Below are positions 5,805 to 41,793 of a stretch of 64,000 bases of DNA, in pieces (position 1 is the first letter of the stretch; the number at the start of each line of letters is the position of its first letter). The position numbers and the translations under genes are program-made. The DNA is from Bacteroidaceae bacterium (GTDB lineage: Bacteria; Bacteroidota; Bacteroidia; Bacteroidales; Bacteroidaceae): contig JAFTUK010000056.1 of assembly GCA_017466325.1 (NCBI GenBank), forward strand, positions 1 through 64,000, given 5' to 3'. The notes under the pieces were generated by a model, which was given only the letters and a program-made list of their open reading frames with translations, ran no database searches and was not told the origin of the DNA.

Positions 5805-5813
5805 AATACCGAG

Positions 5814-5849
5814 AAATGGACCGATACTTTTTGTAATGGTCCATTTTTT
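5814..5849 (+). terminator. Intrinsic terminator after the WecA-like gene
   Basis: AAATGGACC (5814-5822) pairs perfectly with GGTCCATTT (5838-5846) around a 15-base loop, and a T-run follows to 5849. It starts 10 bases after the stop codon. Confidence 0.8.
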
Positions 5850-21683: not shown

Positions 21684-21784
21684 TACTACGATTGTAGTTG
21701 GTTATCGTGTTTTTTTCATCCAAATACTATGATTATAGTTAAAACTTATGTGCTGACAAATGATTTTGTACTACATTTGCAGTA
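21684..21784 (+). promoter_or_regulatory. Three BlaI/MecI-type operators and promoter
   Basis: Three dyads precede the BlaI gene: TACTACGATTGTAGTT (21684-21699), TACTATGATTATAGTT (21725-21740) and TACTACATTTGCAGTA (21769-21784). They resemble the known BlaI box TACTACATATGTAGTA. Centre-to-centre spacings are 41 and 44 bases. The third covers the -7 element TAcaTTTG (21772-21779), so a bound repressor would block the promoter; autoregulation of the BlaI/M56 pair is likely. Confidence 0.75.
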
Positions 21785-21846
21785 GAAAAGCATGGCGACA
21801 TATACTTTTTGATATCAAATGCAATAAATATAATACTTACGGCAAT

Positions 21847-22215
21847 ATGGAAAACAAGAAATCTCTAACCAAGGCTGAACTAAATGTGATGAACATTCTG
21901 TGGAGCAAGAACGAAGCCACCGTGAACGAGATAATCGAAGTGATGAGCGAACCCAAACCTGCCTACACAACGGTGCTGACCGTGATGCAGGTACTTACCC
22001 GCAAGGGAATAGTCTCTCCTGAGCGCAGGGGCAAGGCGCACGTGTTTCGTCCTCTGCTCTCTCGCGAAGAATACATCGATACTTTTATGCAGGAAACCCG
22101 CAACGTTCTCTTTCAGGGTTCTTTGCGCAGTCTCTTCTCCTATTTCGTGAAGAGCGAAAAACTGAGCAAGGAAGAACTGAATAAGATCCTTGACGAAATC
22201 AATGACGAGGAGTAA
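21847..22215 (+). CDS. BlaI/MecI-family winged-helix repressor
   Basis: Cytoplasmic dimeric repressor of 122 residues. ATG 21847 is chosen because MENKKSLTKAELNVMNILW is the family start; upstream in-frame codons cover the promoter. The winged helix runs through ATVNEIIEVM, PAYTTVLTVMQVLTRKGIV and RRGKAHVFRPL, and the C-terminal helices (LFSYFVKSEKLSKEELNKIL) dimerise. In the family, proteolysis initiated by a membrane M56 peptidase inactivates the repressor; that partner is encoded next. In Bacteroidales such pairs are common and usually not tied to beta-lactam resistance. Confidence 0.93.
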   Translation: MENKKSLTKAELNVMNILWSKNEATVNEIIEVMSEPKPAYTTVLTVMQVLTRKGIVSPERRGKAHVFRPLLSREEYIDTFMQETRNVLFQGSLRSLFSYFVKSEKLSKEELNKILDEINDEE

Positions 22216-22259
22216 TCCTGTTACATGAAATTCCAATCACTTAACCCCCTTCACACCTT

Positions 22260-24263
22260 ATGACAAACTTTGATCCCCTTATCCCCGTGCTGCAAGGCTA
22301 TGGCAGTATCCTGCTGGTATCAACTATGCTGATGGCATTCTACTTATTGGTGATGTCGCGCAAGCAATCGTTTCGGTTTCAGCGCATGTACTTGCTGGCT
22401 ATCCCTGCGGTATGTTTCATGCAGATTATAGCATTGGCCGTTCTGCCTAAAATTATGCCTCAAAGAGAGGTCGAGGTTATTACTCTCACCCAGGAAGAGG
22501 CCAGGCGATACCAATATGAGAATCCTGATACGAAGGTGATTGCTGAGGAAATGCCAGCCGCAGAAGCAGAGGGCATATCCACTCCAACGCCCTTGCCCGA
22601 AGAAGAACAATTTGTAATATCTGCCAGCACTATCCAAAAATGTATCTACCTTGGCATTCCCATAGTGTCAGCACTGCTCTTGCTCATAATACTCATCCCT
22701 CTTGTGCAAATCTTGCTTCGTACACGTGCTATCAGGCTCTCAAACATGGAGGGTTCCTGCACCATCGTACGGAAACCATGGGTCAGCACTCCCTTCTCCA
22801 TGGGACGCATCATATTTCTGCCCATGGGAAAGAGCAAGGAGGCAGAAGATATTTTTATCAAGCATGAAGAGGCTCACATCCAGAGTTTGCACTACATTGA
22901 TGTGTGGTGCATAGAGGTGATGGTAAGACTACTATGGTTCAACCCCATGCTATGGGTGGTACGCAAGCACTTGCGCGACTTGCACGAATTTGAAGCCGAC
23001 CGCCTGGTTCTTGCACAAGGTGTGGATGCACATTCTTATCAGTGCCTGTTGTTGGAAGTGGCTTCAGGCGAATGTTCCATCCTTACCAATGGTTTCAACC
23101 AATCCTTTATTCGTCGTCGCATCAGGGAAATGAAGCGCAAGGGTGTCGCCGTTCTTGGACATTGGGGTAAAACCGCGGCCATATTGTGGGGCGTTACACT
23201 GGTAGGTGCTTCTACCATATTTGCCCTGCCGGAGCAAAAAGCAGTAGTAATACATATCGAGAAGCAGATAACCGCAACTGGCGATACCATCTATTCGGAT
23301 GCAGAGATAAAAGACAGGGTTCGCCAATTATGCCCAGAAGGAAGAGTTGCATTAGTAAATGAAATTGTCGAAGATTTAGAAGCAGACATTAATGTCACCA
23401 AGGTTGTTTTTGTTTCTCCACATGATACAATATGTTTTGATGAGAAGACCATACAAATCATTGCCCAGATGTACCGCAATAATCCAAAGGCCCTCTATGA
23501 AGTGCTTGGACGTCCTCAGCCAACAGAGGAAGAATTGGTAAAGAAGAGAATTAAGGCAAAAGAGGAAGAAAACAAACATCTTTACTCGCGTAGATTGAGG
23601 AAACATTTAGGAATTTCCAAGTTTCTACCTGCCAAATCGCTAAAGTTTGTCGACACCTTTATGCTAACATACTCGTTTGGAGACTTACAAAAGCAGCAAG
23701 GTTCACCTGTCTTCAATGTGGGAGCAATATGTACTTCCTTATTCGATAACTTCCTTGTACTGACAATGACAATGGATACTACTATAGTTCTCAGGCATGA
23801 ACAGTACAGGTACGCCCCCAACAATTTTCCCACCATCACCGGTTGGATGCTCAAGAATTGTGATACCTATTGGAGGGAAGGACAAATAGAGTATAACGGT
23901 GGTGTGGATGCTGACACAGACGACAAGAATAGTGCCCCTCTCTCTGCTAAAGAGCGTGCTAAGGTAAAAAGTACCATAAAGCAACTTCGCGCCAAGTACG
24001 AGCGTACATTCACTTCTGGCGAATTCATAGAGAATAGCAATGCCGACAAAATCTTCGTTGTTCAGTTGCCTCATATAGAAGAAATCAAAAATGCAGGTAC
24101 ATTGAATGACCGAATTTTCCGGGAGAAGGCAAAGAAATGTTATGCCATCGAGTTCTACAAGAAGGGACGCAAAGATGCCATGCGCATGCTCATCTTTACA
24201 TACGAAGAAGTCAGCATAGAAACCATTCTCGGCAAGATTTCAAAATACATCCGATTCGAATAG
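22260..24263 (+). CDS. BlaR1/MecR1-like M56 membrane metallopeptidase
   Basis: Predicted signal-transducing zinc protease of 667 residues. Membrane segments lie at about 12-30, 42-62 and 125-150, and a fourth near 295-315. The zinc motif HEEAH (residues about 202-206, in FIKHEEAHIQSLHYIDVWC) and HEFEADRLVL are M56 hallmarks. The extracytoplasmic part from about 320 on has no penicillin-binding motifs that I can see, so the signal is probably not a beta-lactam. It contains a KRIKAKEEENKHL coiled stretch and a SFGDLQKQQGSPVFNVG region I do not recognise. It starts 44 bases after the BlaI stop, same operon. Base composition in the C-terminal half is more AT-rich. Confidence 0.88.
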   Translation: MTNFDPLIPVLQGYGSILLVSTMLMAFYLLVMSRKQSFRFQRMYLLAIPAVCFMQIIALAVLPKIMPQREVEVITLTQEEARRYQYENPDTKVIAEEMPAAEAEGISTPTPLPEEEQFVISASTIQKCIYLGIPIVSALLLLIILIPLVQILLRTRAIRLSNMEGSCTIVRKPWVSTPFSMGRIIFLPMGKSKEAEDIFIKHEEAHIQSLHYIDVWCIEVMVRLLWFNPMLWVVRKHLRDLHEFEADRLVLAQGVDAHSYQCLLLEVASGECSILTNGFNQSFIRRRIREMKRKGVAVLGHWGKTAAILWGVTLVGASTIFALPEQKAVVIHIEKQITATGDTIYSDAEIKDRVRQLCPEGRVALVNEIVEDLEADINVTKVVFVSPHDTICFDEKTIQIIAQMYRNNPKALYEVLGRPQPTEEELVKKRIKAKEEENKHLYSRRLRKHLGISKFLPAKSLKFVDTFMLTYSFGDLQKQQGSPVFNVGAICTSLFDNFLVLTMTMDTTIVLRHEQYRYAPNNFPTITGWMLKNCDTYWREGQIEYNGGVDADTDDKNSAPLSAKERAKVKSTIKQLRAKYERTFTSGEFIENSNADKIFVVQLPHIEEIKNAGTLNDRIFREKAKKCYAIEFYKKGRKDAMRMLIFTYEEVSIETILGKISKYIRFE

Positions 24264-24677
24264 GAGATACTAAACACGGGTGTCAAAAATATAATAACAA
24301 AGGTAAATGCGAAAGTTGGCATGCTATGCCCTTGCTTAACCTTAGCATCTTGAGACATCATCCTCCAGTTCATCGGTTCGAAGAAATCCGTTATCATTTG
24401 ACATCGTATAGGAAACTCGTGCTCAACATAAAAGTGGACTTTTCTGTATTTGTTTGATTCTATTCTTGCTTTTTCGCTCACTTAATCGTACCCTTGAGAC
24501 TGTGTCTCGAAGGTACTTACACTCGGAAATCCTCAAACAAGTTTGGTATTTACCTCGCTTATTCGTACCTTTGACCTGCCGGTCGAAGGTACTCACGTTC
24601 GGAAAATTGCAAACAAGTTTGCATTTTCGCTCACTTAATCGTACCTTTGTGCGGAAGAATAACGTAGGAACAAGGAC
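24264..24677. other. Intergenic region with tandem mirror promoters
   Basis: Of this 414-base gap, 24466-24649 is the repeated promoter array described separately. The first 190 bases contain no gene or repeat that I can support, only an isolated CAAAGGTA (minus-strand -7 type) near 24298. Confidence 0.6.
24466..24649. promoter_or_regulatory. Tandem array of bidirectional Bacteroidetes promoters
   Basis: Three plus-strand promoters: TTG 24466-24468 with TAccCTTG 24489-24496; TTTG 24542-24545 with TAccTTTG 24566-24573; TTTG 24618-24621 with TAccTTTG 24642-24649, all with 20-base spacers. Two minus-strand promoters overlap them: TTTG at 24534-24537 and TAccTTCG at 24508-24515; TTTG at 24610-24613 and TAccTTCG at 24584-24591, with 18-base spacers. 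The -7 boxes lie in hairpins of 13 and 12 bp (24488-24516, 24565-24592) and the -33 boxes in the palindrome CAAACAAGTTTG. The last forward promoter would drive pepT, 29 bases on. Confidence 0.75.
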
Positions 24678-25922
24678 ATGATGAAAAAGGAAATAGTAGA
24701 AAGATTCTTGAAGTATGTAGGTTTCGACACCCAGTCAAGCGAGGAGGCAGAGGGCAAGTGTCCAAGTACAGAGAAGCAGTTGCGTCTGGCGGAATATCTG
24801 GTGGAGGAACTGAAGGAGATGGGTATGCAGGAGGTGGAGATGGACGCCCATGGCTATGTCTATGCCACTCTGCCTTCAAGCGAGGGTTTGGAGGAAGTGC
24901 CTGTGGTGGGATTCATTGCACACATGGACACCAGTCCTGATTGCTCGGGTGCTGATGTAAAACCGCGCATCATAGAGAACTACGACGGCACGGACATCGT
25001 GTTGGACGAAGCGGAAGGTATCGTGACACGTGTCAGCCAGTTCCCCGAACTCCTTGCGCACAAGGGCGAGGACCTCATCGTTACCGACGGTCATACCCTG
25101 CTCGGCGCCGACGACAAGGCAGGCATTGCCGAGATAATGACGGCAATGTCGTACCTGTTGACCCATCCCGAGGTGAAGCACGGCAAGGTGCGTGTTTGCT
25201 TCAATCCCGACGAGGAAATCGGTTGTGGCGCACACCTCTTCGATGTGGAGAAGTTCGGATGCCAGTGGGCCTACACTATGGACGGTAGCGAGGTGGGCGA
25301 ACTGGAGTACGAGAACTTCAATGCCGCCAGTGCCAAGATTGTTGTGAACGGCGTGAGCGTGCATCCCGGCTATGCCAAGGACAAGATGGTGAATGCCGCC
25401 CTGTTGGCTACGGAATTTGCCCAGCAGATGCCGGAGAACGAGGTGCCAGAACGCACCACCGGTTACGAAGGCTTCTTCCACCTGTACCAGATGCAGGGTG
25501 GGGTGGAGCAGGCCACACTGACCTACATAATCCGCGACCACAACACGCAGATGTTCCAGATGCGCAAGCGTCTTATCCTGGACATGTGCGAGAGGATGAA
25601 CGACAAGTACGGGCACGGCACATTCCTGCCCGAGGTGAAGGACACCTATTATAATATGCACACCCAGTTGGTAGACAAGCCCCACATCACCGACATTGCC
25701 CTGCGTGCCATTGAGGAGGCATGCGGATTCTCCAAGGTAGTGCCCATCCGTGGCGGTACAGACGGAGCGCAGTTGTCATTCAAGGGGTTGCCCTGTCCTA
25801 ATATCTTTGCCGGCGGACTCAACTTCCACGGCCGTCACGAGTTCCTGCCCGTGCAGAGCATGGAGAAGGCCATGCATACGGTGGTGAACATCTGCCGTAT
25901 CGTTTCCGAGAAGTACGCTTAA
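24678..25922 (+). CDS. pepT: Peptidase T (tripeptide aminopeptidase)
   Basis: Cytosolic M20 metallopeptidase that removes the N-terminal residue of tripeptides. The product has 414 residues, the family length. Di-zinc site motifs are visible: [11 protein letters not shown] (His, catalytic Asp), [14 protein letters not shown] (bridging Asp), [14 protein letters not shown] (catalytic Glu and next ligand), [17 protein letters not shown] and, near the end, [10 protein letters not shown] PepT dimerisation domain lies between. ATG at 24678 or 24681 could be used. It has an elaborate promoter array upstream and is followed after 18 bases by a DUF454 gene, possibly co-transcribed. Identity is firm. 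Confidence 0.96.
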
Positions 25923-40011: not shown

Positions 40012-41793
40012 TTATCCTAACCTAAACATAATGGGAAGATTATAACGAGTTCGGACTATTTTTCCTTTTTCAACTGCTGGTTCCCATTTTGGCATAATAT
40101 TTACAAGACGAAGTGCTTCTTCTGAAAGATGTTGGCTTGGAGAACGGACAACCTTCACGTCTACGACAGAACCATCTGTGTCAACAATAAATGATAATAT
40201 TACCCTACCTTGAACACCCTGCGCCTGACAGATTGGTGGATACTTGATGTTTTTCCGCAGCCAATTCATACATTCTGCATCCCCACCGGGGAAAGAGGCG
40301 TTTGCTGTTACATAGAACAAAATATCCGTAGACTGTATTTCATAGCAAATTAAACCACCTACCATCTTTCTGCCAAGTTGCGAACATCCTAAAAACACTT
40401 CCAAACCGACATATTCCAAAGAGTCTGGAACTATCGCCTTACGCAATGAAGAACAATCACAGAATGCCAAATCTCCGATATATCTTACTGAATTGGGGAT
40501 ATTTATTTCTGCTAAAGAAGAACATCGCTCAAATGCCAAATCTCCGATATATCTTACTGAATTGGGGATATTTATTTCTGTCAATGAAGGACACCGCCCA
40601 AATGCCATATCTCCGATATACTCTACTGAATTGGGAATATTTATCTTTGTCAATGGACATTCGTAGAATGTTTTTTCTCCGATAATTTTAACGCTTTGGG
40701 GGATATTAATAGTTTTCAGATTCTTACATCTTGCAAAAGTACCGGCTAATCCTACTGTATTTTCTTGCAATTTGTATTTAGCAAGTGTGCAGTCTGCTAC
40801 ATCCACAGCCCAATTTCCTGCATACAAAACGTTATTTTTCTTCGGAAGTTTTTTACAACCCTTAAATGCAGTACTGCTTATCTTAATAACGCTCTCTGCA
40901 ATGGAAATATCGGAAAGAGAAGTACAACCACTAAATGTACCGTCATCTATATATTTTAAACCTTCAGGCAAACATATTGATTCGAGATTAGAACAGAAAG
41001 AAAAAGTACCAGACAATCCTATAGTATTTTCACGTATAATATAAGTTTTACATTTATTGTCCGCAACGCCAACAGCCCAATTGCCTGCATAACGAATTGC
41101 ATTTTCGACAGGTAGAGCATTGCAACCATAAAATGCAGTAGCATCCATTTTGGAAACACTCTCAGGAATATCTATCTCCGAAAGAGAAGTGCAACCCTCA
41201 AATGCACTTTTACCAATTTTTATAAGTCCATCAGGTAATGCTATGGATTTAAGTTGCGAGTTGTTTAAAAAAGCCCCCGAACCAATAACTTTGACATAGT
41301 TTGGTATAACTGATGTACTGCAACCAAGTACCAAAGTACTGTCATATATAGAAATGAGACAGTTTCCCTCTGAAAAATAAAACTTGTTTTCACTGTCAAT
41401 ATTTATTTGAGACAAATTGCTGCAGCCATTAAAAGCACTATATGCAATATAGGCGAGAGAATCAGGTAGAGTTACTGAGTTTAAAAGAGTAAAGTTTTTA
41501 AATGCATTACTACCGATATACGTTATTCCTTCTGCGATCTCTACTGATTTTGCTTTATCACGATAACTATACCATGGTGCGTGTGTCCTCATCTTTATAG
41601 TTTCAAAATTTTCAATTCTACCATTTCCTGTAATACTCAATTTCCCCGTACTTTCATCAAAAGACCATTTGATGCCTTTCTCGGGATCAAATGAGCATGT
41701 CATTCCCGTACCACAATCACCAGTAATAACCTTTGCATTTAGCAAACAAACGAATGCTACTACATAAAGTAGTAAAATTGAAAATCTTTTCAT
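40012..41793 (-). CDS. BspA-type leucine-rich repeat protein with C-terminal TonB_C domain
   Basis: Exported protein of 593 residues: signal peptide MKRFSILLLYVVAFVCLLNA, a short beta domain (GKLSITGNGRIENFE, typical of BspA starts), about 17 LRR_5 repeats of roughly 23 residues (for example INIPNSVRYIGDLAFERCSSLAE), then a TonB C-terminal-type domain (WLRKNIKYPPICQAQGVQGR, FIVDTDGSVVDVKVV, MPKWEPAVEKGK). BspA repeats bind host proteins in Tannerella and Treponema; TonB_C normally contacts outer-membrane receptors. Both modules together are odd. There is no membrane anchor and no sorting tail. AT-rich codon use and near-identical repeats suggest recent acquisition or expansion. Confidence 0.85.
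   Translation of the reverse strand: MKRFSILLLYVVAFVCLLNAKVITGDCGTGMTCSFDPEKGIKWSFDESTGKLSITGNGRIENFETIKMRTHAPWYSYRDKAKSVEIAEGITYIGSNAFKNFTLLNSVTLPDSLAYIAYSAFNGCSNLSQINIDSENKFYFSEGNCLISIYDSTLVLGCSTSVIPNYVKVIGSGAFLNNSQLKSIALPDGLIKIGKSAFEGCTSLSEIDIPESVSKMDATAFYGCNALPVENAIRYAGNWAVGVADNKCKTYIIRENTIGLSGTFSFCSNLESICLPEGLKYIDDGTFSGCTSLSDISIAESVIKISSTAFKGCKKLPKKNNVLYAGNWAVDVADCTLAKYKLQENTVGLAGTFARCKNLKTINIPQSVKIIGEKTFYECPLTKINIPNSVEYIGDMAFGRCPSLTEINIPNSVRYIGDLAFERCSSLAEINIPNSVRYIGDLAFCDCSSLRKAIVPDSLEYVGLEVFLGCSQLGRKMVGGLICYEIQSTDILFYVTANASFPGGDAECMNWLRKNIKYPPICQAQGVQGRVILSFIVDTDGSVVDVKVVRSPSQHLSEEALRLVNIMPKWEPAVEKGKIVRTRYNLPIMFRLG
40463..40649 (-). repeat. 69-base tandem repeats inside the BspA-like gene
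   Basis: A 49-base block starting AATGCCAAATCTCCGATA is identical at 40463-40511 and 40532-40580, and diverged at 40601. The period is 69 bases, one 23-residue LRR. The identity at DNA level points to recent duplication or slippage. Confidence 0.85.

Follow-up and report, generated by a model that had tools for sequence, protein, structure and literature searches.

What is the tandem, nearly mirror-symmetric repeat that lies directly upstream of a pepT-like gene in a Bacteroidaceae genome, and what is it doing at a promoter? The repeat was found in a window of 64,000 nucleotides (the whole stretch of DNA analysed, from contig JAFTUK010000056.1). In the initial annotation it was read as an expandable array in which forward and reverse promoters interlock and are mutually exclusive, or else as an RNA hairpin at the 5' end of the transcript. 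The comparisons reported here favour another answer: we consider it reasonably probable that the array consists of copies of a dispersed, non-coding, quasi-palindromic element that targets promoters, rebuilds them and expands in tandem.

The array (24466-24649) is a tandem repeat with a period of 76 and 2.4 copies (TRF score 219). Its direct repeats are spaced 77 and 76, its units measure 76-77 bp, and its 3' end lies 28 nt upstream of the start of the pepT-like ORF at 24678. The two ORFs located 5' of the array (window positions 21760-24263) presumably resemble a BlaI/MecI-type repressor and a BlaR1/MecR1-type membrane peptidase. Elsewhere in the window, a 69-bp tandem repeat with 3.1 copies was observed at positions 40444-40655; on the minus strand it resembles what we take to be BspA-type leucine-rich repeats. 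The features of the region are as follows.

24412..24446, plus strand: possible degenerate relic of the second subfamily described below (ACTCGTGCTC...AAAAGTGGACTTTTCTG), 5' of the array; a weak likeness, judged by eye against loci L017 and L038.
24466..24496, plus strand: leftmost right half, with TTG at -33, a 20-nt spacer and the imperfect box TACCCTTG; from the sequence and the direct repeats.
24497..24507, plus strand: linker 1, AGACTGTGTCT, top of hairpin A; from the sequence, with linkers of the same kind at other modules.
24508..24573, plus strand: module 1, with left end CGAAGGTAC, then TTACACTC, the -33 palindrome, the spacer and the right-end box TACCTTTG.
24534..24545, no strand: -33 palindrome CAAACAAGTTTG of module 1; from the sequence.
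24574..24583, plus strand: linker 2, ACCTGCCGGT, top of hairpin A; from the sequence.
24584..24649, plus strand: module 2, gene-proximal, with left end CGAAGGTAC, the -33 palindrome CAAACAAGTTTG (24610-24621), the spacer (24622-24641) and the box TACCTTTG (24642-24649).
24650..24677, plus strand: pepT leader, identical in genome G477, where no unit is present.
24678..25922, plus strand: pepT-like ORF of 414 aa; the name pepT is that of the initial annotation, made from sequence only.

The sigma-ABfr promoter of Bacteroidota is given as TAnnTTTG at -7 and TTTG at -33 in the available part of the source (PMC7366714). All three plus-strand promoters of the initial annotation indeed have 20-nt spacers, and two of them read TTTG, 20 nt and TACCTTTG on the plus strand (24542-24573 and 24618-24649), but the first departs from the consensus in both its box, TACCCTTG, and its -33 TTG. 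The two minus-strand promoters likewise have the 18-nt spacers described, but both of their boxes are TACCTTCG and not TAnnTTTG. The period, the copy number and the linker stems that stay paired with changed bases (GAGAC/GTCTC and GACC/GGTC) are confirmed, but the interpretation as bidirectional promoters is not.

The unit recurs at many other loci. In the 2.59 Mb genome to which the window belongs (G000, 88% complete), the 20-base promoter core CTCACTTAATCGTACCTTTG is matched at 75 places when up to 3 mismatches are allowed, and at none in the reversed control. Stretch L019 of G000 is almost the same as L161, from a 'Bacteroidaceae bacterium' assembled out of a water deer colon metagenome, and the host is accordingly regarded as an uncultured member of the gut Bacteroidales. 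Forty stretches around these matches, 101 kb in total, were examined (the core match C56:34871 was left out); they were found with a core that ends in TTTG and are therefore biased toward TTTG. The recurring unit starts with a short linker, itself a small hairpin, which is followed by a left end that typically reads C[G/T]AAGNNAC, by TCACGCTCGG or a relative of it, by a stem whose loop lies at the -33 palindrome, by the spacer CTCRCTTAWTC and by the box GTNNCTTTG. The part downstream of the linker, which we call the module, is quasi-palindromic and mostly 66-76 bp long, and linker plus module mostly measure 74-87 bp. Altogether 54 modules are found in the window and in 29 of the 40 stretches; among the other stretches there are lone right halves and degenerate copies. 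At L009, L022, L040 and L041 there are lone right halves located 5' of genes and lacking a left half, and these look like remnants left after the loss of all units, comparable to the pepT promoter of G477.

Named genomes were searched with a 20-base left-half pattern, which favours the left spacer TCACGCTC and fixes part of the left end while leaving the covarying base free, and at least 118 stretches were obtained. Modules are present in 114 of the 118 named loci among the matches listed, in records of Prevotella, Prevotellaceae, Bacteroidaceae, Muribaculaceae and other Bacteroidales; four of these 118, both Palleniella loci included, hold none. The set used below comprises 233 distinct modules, 54 from the own genome and 179 from the named loci among the matches listed. 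The core is present in 26 of 36 congeners (1 to 67 matches each) and absent from all 24 genomes of other genera in the same draw, and an order-wide draw gave the core in 10 of 393 genomes, the own genome included. Prevotella sp. P5-50, a named isolate genome, has 31 left-half matches with up to 2 mismatches, and the isolate Tc2-24 has 4. A plasmid search returned no match to the repeat, and viral contigs gave a single match to the left-half motif, at 5805-5824 of an IMG/VR contig of 126 kb (L306). The literature search found no published description of the repeat; one motif string in a Yersinia paper was taken as chance. Dispersal is also seen in near-identical units at unrelated loci (72/74 and 71/74 identical), whose identity drops to 13/40 and 7/40 just past the right-end TTTG; in one such pair it also ends at the left (14/60).

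Such recurrence could also be explained by a host cis-regulatory module in which the left half TACTCACGCTCGG and the spacer CTCRCTTAWTCG are binding sites for a regulator or a nucleoid protein. Ectopic gene conversion, with the common promoter half as its anchor, would have spread such modules between promoters, and selection would have kept them. The left half and the spacer do recur at unrelated loci, the spacer reads CTC[AG]CTTA[AT]TC in 191 of the 233 modules (own and among the matches listed), and the arrays are found at promoters, in a single orientation, before many different genes. A binding palindrome, however, should keep its bases, and here the arms vary while the pairing stays; the left spacer TCACGCTC is exact in just 15 of the 54 own modules (142 of the 179 from named loci among the matches listed, a figure inflated by the search pattern); congeners range from 0 to 67 core matches; and the second subfamily inserts into the module itself. 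We regard this combined account as rather improbable, although it is the best of the alternatives to the proposed element.

The two arms of the module covary. In 210 of the 233 modules (90%; own and among the matches listed), the left end carries the partner of the variable base in the right box, where independence would give 34%; the values are 52/54 against 35% for the own genome alone and 158/179 against 34% for the named loci among the matches listed. The stem positions adjoining the -33 palindrome covary likewise in the same 233 modules (own and among the matches listed). At the sequence level this covariation bears out the initial observation that the stems stay paired. Where the left end matches one possible partner only, 12 modules match the box across the -33 palindrome and one matches the upstream box, so that the centre of the symmetric unit lies at -33 and not in the -7 hairpin; the linker hairpin, too, is paired. 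In the 39 own units, the base opposite the third T of TTTG is never its Watson-Crick partner. The run CAAA, needed for a reverse TTTG box, is present in 2 of the 233 modules (own and among the matches listed), where the common forms are CGAA (118) and CTAA (47).

Paired stems raise the question of RNA function, namely whether read-through or upstream transcripts fold into two helices around a conserved internal loop and so control the downstream gene. The stems do covary, and the modules fold with a z of about -3.3 on the plus strand. The minus strand, however, folds at least as well (z about -3.5), with a lower folding energy in 206 of the 233 modules and an equal one in 2, and because its structure is at least as stable as that of the plus strand we claim no RNA function. 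In addition, no Rfam covariance model matched positions 24300-24800 up to E = 1, the inner boxes are degraded, and a start at the gene-proximal box, which is located downstream of the hairpins, would leave them out of the transcript. A plus-strand RNA device was rejected, the strand folding test having pointed the other way. RNA-level control in general appears quite unlikely, and the hairpin at the transcript 5' end proposed at first does not agree with such a start or with folding that does not favour the plus strand.

The arrays face genes in one direction. Among 118 distinct arrays with enough flank (own and among the matches listed), the start of an ORF of at least 150 aa lies within 60 nt of the right end in 92 and within 60 nt of the left end in 5. 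Of 160 own and named arrays among the matches listed, which include the duplicate records L115/L151 and L100/L121, 145 have a co-directional ORF (within 60 nt in 121), whose ATG follows the last box at a median distance of 26 nt. The downstream genes are diverse (132 proteins fall into 109 clusters), and the upstream neighbours of 109 arrays are mixed: 40 on the same strand, 36 divergent, 29 ambiguous and 4 with none. The boxes within an array differ as well: 144 of 154 terminal boxes retain TTTG, compared with just 21 of 79 inner boxes (own and among the matches listed; Fisher p 1.6e-26). The same decay of inner boxes is seen in the named loci among the matches listed, found with a pattern that does not contain TTTG (113/119 terminal, 14/60 inner). 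By sequence, the terminal boxes, ending in TTTG in the proportion just given, belong to the sigma-ABfr promoter class, and the gene-proximal module 2 (24584..24649) is on these grounds likely the pepT promoter. The gene-ward orientation, the restriction of TTTG to the last copy, the broken mirror box and the mixed upstream neighbours disfavour a device of many working promoters in both directions. Accordingly, bidirectional promoters were rejected on the broken reverse box and the gene orientation, and interlocked promoters excluding each other, which the common -33 palindrome and the mirror-like spacers had suggested, are very improbable given the two reverse TTTG boxes among 233 modules, the lack of an excess of divergent genes (36/109) and the loss of most inner forward boxes.

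Relatives show promoters with and without the element. The pepT-like protein has a match in 56 of the 61 searched genomes of the genus, the own genome included, and the pepT region was compared in nine genomes, four of which have a comparable leader; the other five are not comparable. An alignment of G000 with G004 is uninformative, there being no synteny, and the G475 stretch lies outside the promoter. There are no units before pepT in G477, two in G000 and two in G478, the first of the latter pair being of another kind. G477 is the closest relative read (98% protein identity at pepT), and in it a lone promoter half, to which the leftmost right half of our array (24466..24496) is similar, is joined directly to the leader. 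G472 has two units and a further insertion of about 70 bp. These counts, which differ at other orthologous promoters too, uphold the view of an expandable module contained in the initial annotation. The insertion of about 70 bp occurs at pepT and cysS in several genomes; at L119, L290, L305 and L303 it starts with TTGACCTTCGGTCTTCCTCC, ends with GCGCGTCGG and occupies the same spot in the left arm of the module, and it is another small dispersed element nested in modules.

At guaB, a plain promoter is found in G450 (98% identical to G001), G506, G017 and G484, and a filled one in G001 and G430. In G001, the anchor TTAAAAAGAA...CTTTTTG, which is common to G450 and G506, is followed by 21 nt, TATCTTTA, a linker and a module, after which come TATCTTTG and the homologous leader; G430 shows the same arrangement without the upstream anchor. 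The junctions between G001 and G450/G506 were placed by eye from the upstream anchor and the leader, since the alignments put the gap at the front, the lone promoter fitting either copy. G484 and G513 match over about 85 bp upstream, up to and including TATCTTTG, directly after which G513 is 188 bp longer and carries TATTTTTG before the leader. The guaB box is TACC in the group of G000 and TAAC in relatives without units, and TATT in G513 against TATC in G484. A survey of 43 guaB loci counted 6 as filled, a number that misses degenerate or unusual copies such as those of G026, G507 and G513. At glnS, five relatives (G473, G475, G458, G453 and G004) have a plain TAACTTTG promoter, and in G000, G477, G478 and G472 this box, with a similar leader after it, is preceded by one or two modules; in G472 the box ends in A and the module is cut at the left. 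It is important to mention that the synteny before pepT and guaB varies among many relatives, and that no near-identical strain pair differing by one fresh unit was seen among the relatives compared. As far as sequence can document it, filled and empty states, copy-number differences and a box on both sides of the element are found at orthologous promoters.

Nested copies also bear on the insertion site. A second subfamily, with right ends GTTTCTTTG or GCAAATTTG, sits within the -33 palindromes of modules. The search for nested copies accepted only elements that follow TTT[G/A] on the left and end in TTTG, and set no demand on the pairing of the outer stem halves; it listed 13 cases, of which 5 are ordinary modules and 8 are nested copies that start right after TTTG (4) or TTTA (4) and end in TTTG. 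The split outer stem pairs over at least 5 bp across the nested element in 6 of these 8, compared with 1 bp in the 5 ordinary modules. These nested second-subfamily copies are internal proofs of an empty site. When the demand on the left junction was dropped, a ninth copy was found after TTTG (L034), together with one after GTTG (L038) and one cut by a contig end (L260). A larger inverted repeat (TGTAGGGAC...GTCCCTAC) was observed in the middle of the second-subfamily copies at L034, L259 and L017. In the six nested copies with the end GCAAATTTG (L002, L025, L105, L297, L303 and L304), a TTTA flank goes with T in the linker (4) and a TTTG flank with C (2), and since the flank tracks the linker base, the linker hairpin seems to be kept paired after insertion.

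The left flanks of the arrays point the same way. TTTG lies within 22 nt before the left end in 41 of 94 leftmost modules (own and among the matches listed) compared with 10.9% of 4080 control windows, and TTTG, TTTA or TCTG in the same 22-nt window in 69 of these 94 (own and among the matches listed) compared with 25.5%. From these flanks and the nested copies we infer that the insertion target is probably TTTG. At the promoter distance of 19-21 nt upstream, TTTG is found for 12 of 115 boxes classed as leftmost (10%; some of the 115 are misplaced boxes from inside arrays), for 1.4% of the background and for 93 of 117 inner boxes; by this rule most left flanks are not intact promoters, many of them having eroded or never having been complete. 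The two variable bases of the left-flank box equal those of the right box in 44 of 75 leftmost modules (own and among the matches listed), against 18 expected, which suggests copying or a choice of site guided by pairing. In the same 75 modules the left end matches the variable bases of the right box in 66 and those of the left-flank box in 46, as would also be expected from structural selection; it is complementary to both boxes except at the third T, which is mismatched. Since the right box and the box of the empty site do not always agree, the former probably belongs to the element as its end and is not a simple duplication of the target. Mutation alone, that is, hairpin-templated correction of quasi-palindromes that matches the arms and slippage that multiplies units with no movement between loci, would account for arms that match at positions without obvious use and for the T/C correspondence in the linker hairpins of the six nested copies, but is scarcely credible given that the non-complementary left sequence recurs at unrelated loci and that near-identical, sharp-edged units stand at different loci.

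We thus return to the proposed promoter-rebuilding element. It would sit directly 3' of TTTG, preferably at the end of a -7 box (TAnnTTTG), would bring its own -33 TTTG and conserved 20-bp spacer, and would end in its own TAnnTTTG. Since the element supplies the -33 box, the spacer and the terminal box, the downstream gene would keep its leader and gain a complete new promoter, and since both promoter boxes and the element itself end in TTTG, with the element's own -33 box 20 bp before, each insertion would restore the promoter. The terminal copy would then drive transcription and the left copy of the box would be free to decay, while further units would be gained or lost in tandem, the probable route being recombination of the 32-bp right halves with each other. 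In being complementary to both the box on the left flank and the right box of the element, the left end resembles a guide sequence, which suggests movement by a dedicated mechanism that uses guide pairing.

A short sequence 5' of the palindrome that is able to pair with the cleavage site is a trait of the IS200/IS605 guide logic, according to the accessible part of PMC8266576, and the left end of the repeat is similar in this respect. REP/BIME sequences with their TnpA-REP (RAYT) and the ends of IS200/IS605 also resemble the repeat in their small imperfect palindromes, tandem arrays and conserved stem mismatch. However, no match to the Y1 transposase (Y1_Tnp, PF01797) was found in G000 (88% complete), and the domain is present in 4 of 18 congeneric carriers (own included) and in 6 of 14 carriers of another set; carriers without it include G001, G005, G006, G008, G014, G020, G025 and G033 (61-89% complete). 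As Y1 is absent from G000 and only some carriers have it, the resemblance to the guide logic is a likeness only, and mobilisation by Y1/RAYT was rejected on this patchy distribution. Most tested carriers thus differ from REP/RAYT systems in lacking the transposase. The REP/RAYT tags GTAG or CGTC were not found 5' of the palindrome, where the left end is mostly C[G/T]AAGNNACTCACGCTCGG. The location differs as well: REPs lie mostly near the 3' ends of upstream ORFs, as stated in the part of PMC3733652 at hand, whereas this repeat occupies promoters and is directed toward the gene.

Correia elements of Neisseria and other promoter-bearing MITEs are dispersed short repeats near gene starts that carry promoters, as far as the available text of PMC10969869 describes them. 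As judged from the descriptions, our repeat is set apart from them in that promoter boxes form both its flank and its end and the promoter is rebuilt in place, and in that it forms tandem arrays with the promoter kept at one end only. BrickBuilt of Porphyromonas gingivalis is, in the same portion of PMC10969869, a Bacteroidales MITE with tandem repeats and promoter-like sequence; compared by description only, its tandem part is, by its title, a minisatellite inside a MITE. MITEs of DDE transposons have inverted repeats at their ends and a target site duplication around them; here, a similar 8-bp box is found on both sides at guaB, inspection by eye showed no inverted repeats just within the boxes, and the right box may read differently from the box of the empty site. 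Symmetric bidirectional promoters have boxes in mirror symmetry (PMC10268837, in the part available), but almost every module of our repeat has a broken reverse -7 box.

It is possible, and we put this forward tentatively, that the repeat represents a minimal class of mobile DNA with one hairpin, in which a guide-like end pairs with a core promoter box and the element inserts 3' of TTTG in -7 and -33 boxes, bringing the matching -33 at the correct spacing, so that each insertion leaves a working promoter. Such a class would be a promoter parasite that mends its own damage and has given many genes of gut Bacteroidales tandem promoter arrays. If the proposed explanation is right, it would describe a bacterial repeat for which the core promoter is the landing site and which mends that promoter as it arrives, and would explain how a repeat can spread through dense genomes with little harm. 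Because a given promoter occurs naturally in plain form, with one unit and with several, array dynamics and consequences for expression would both be directly measurable.
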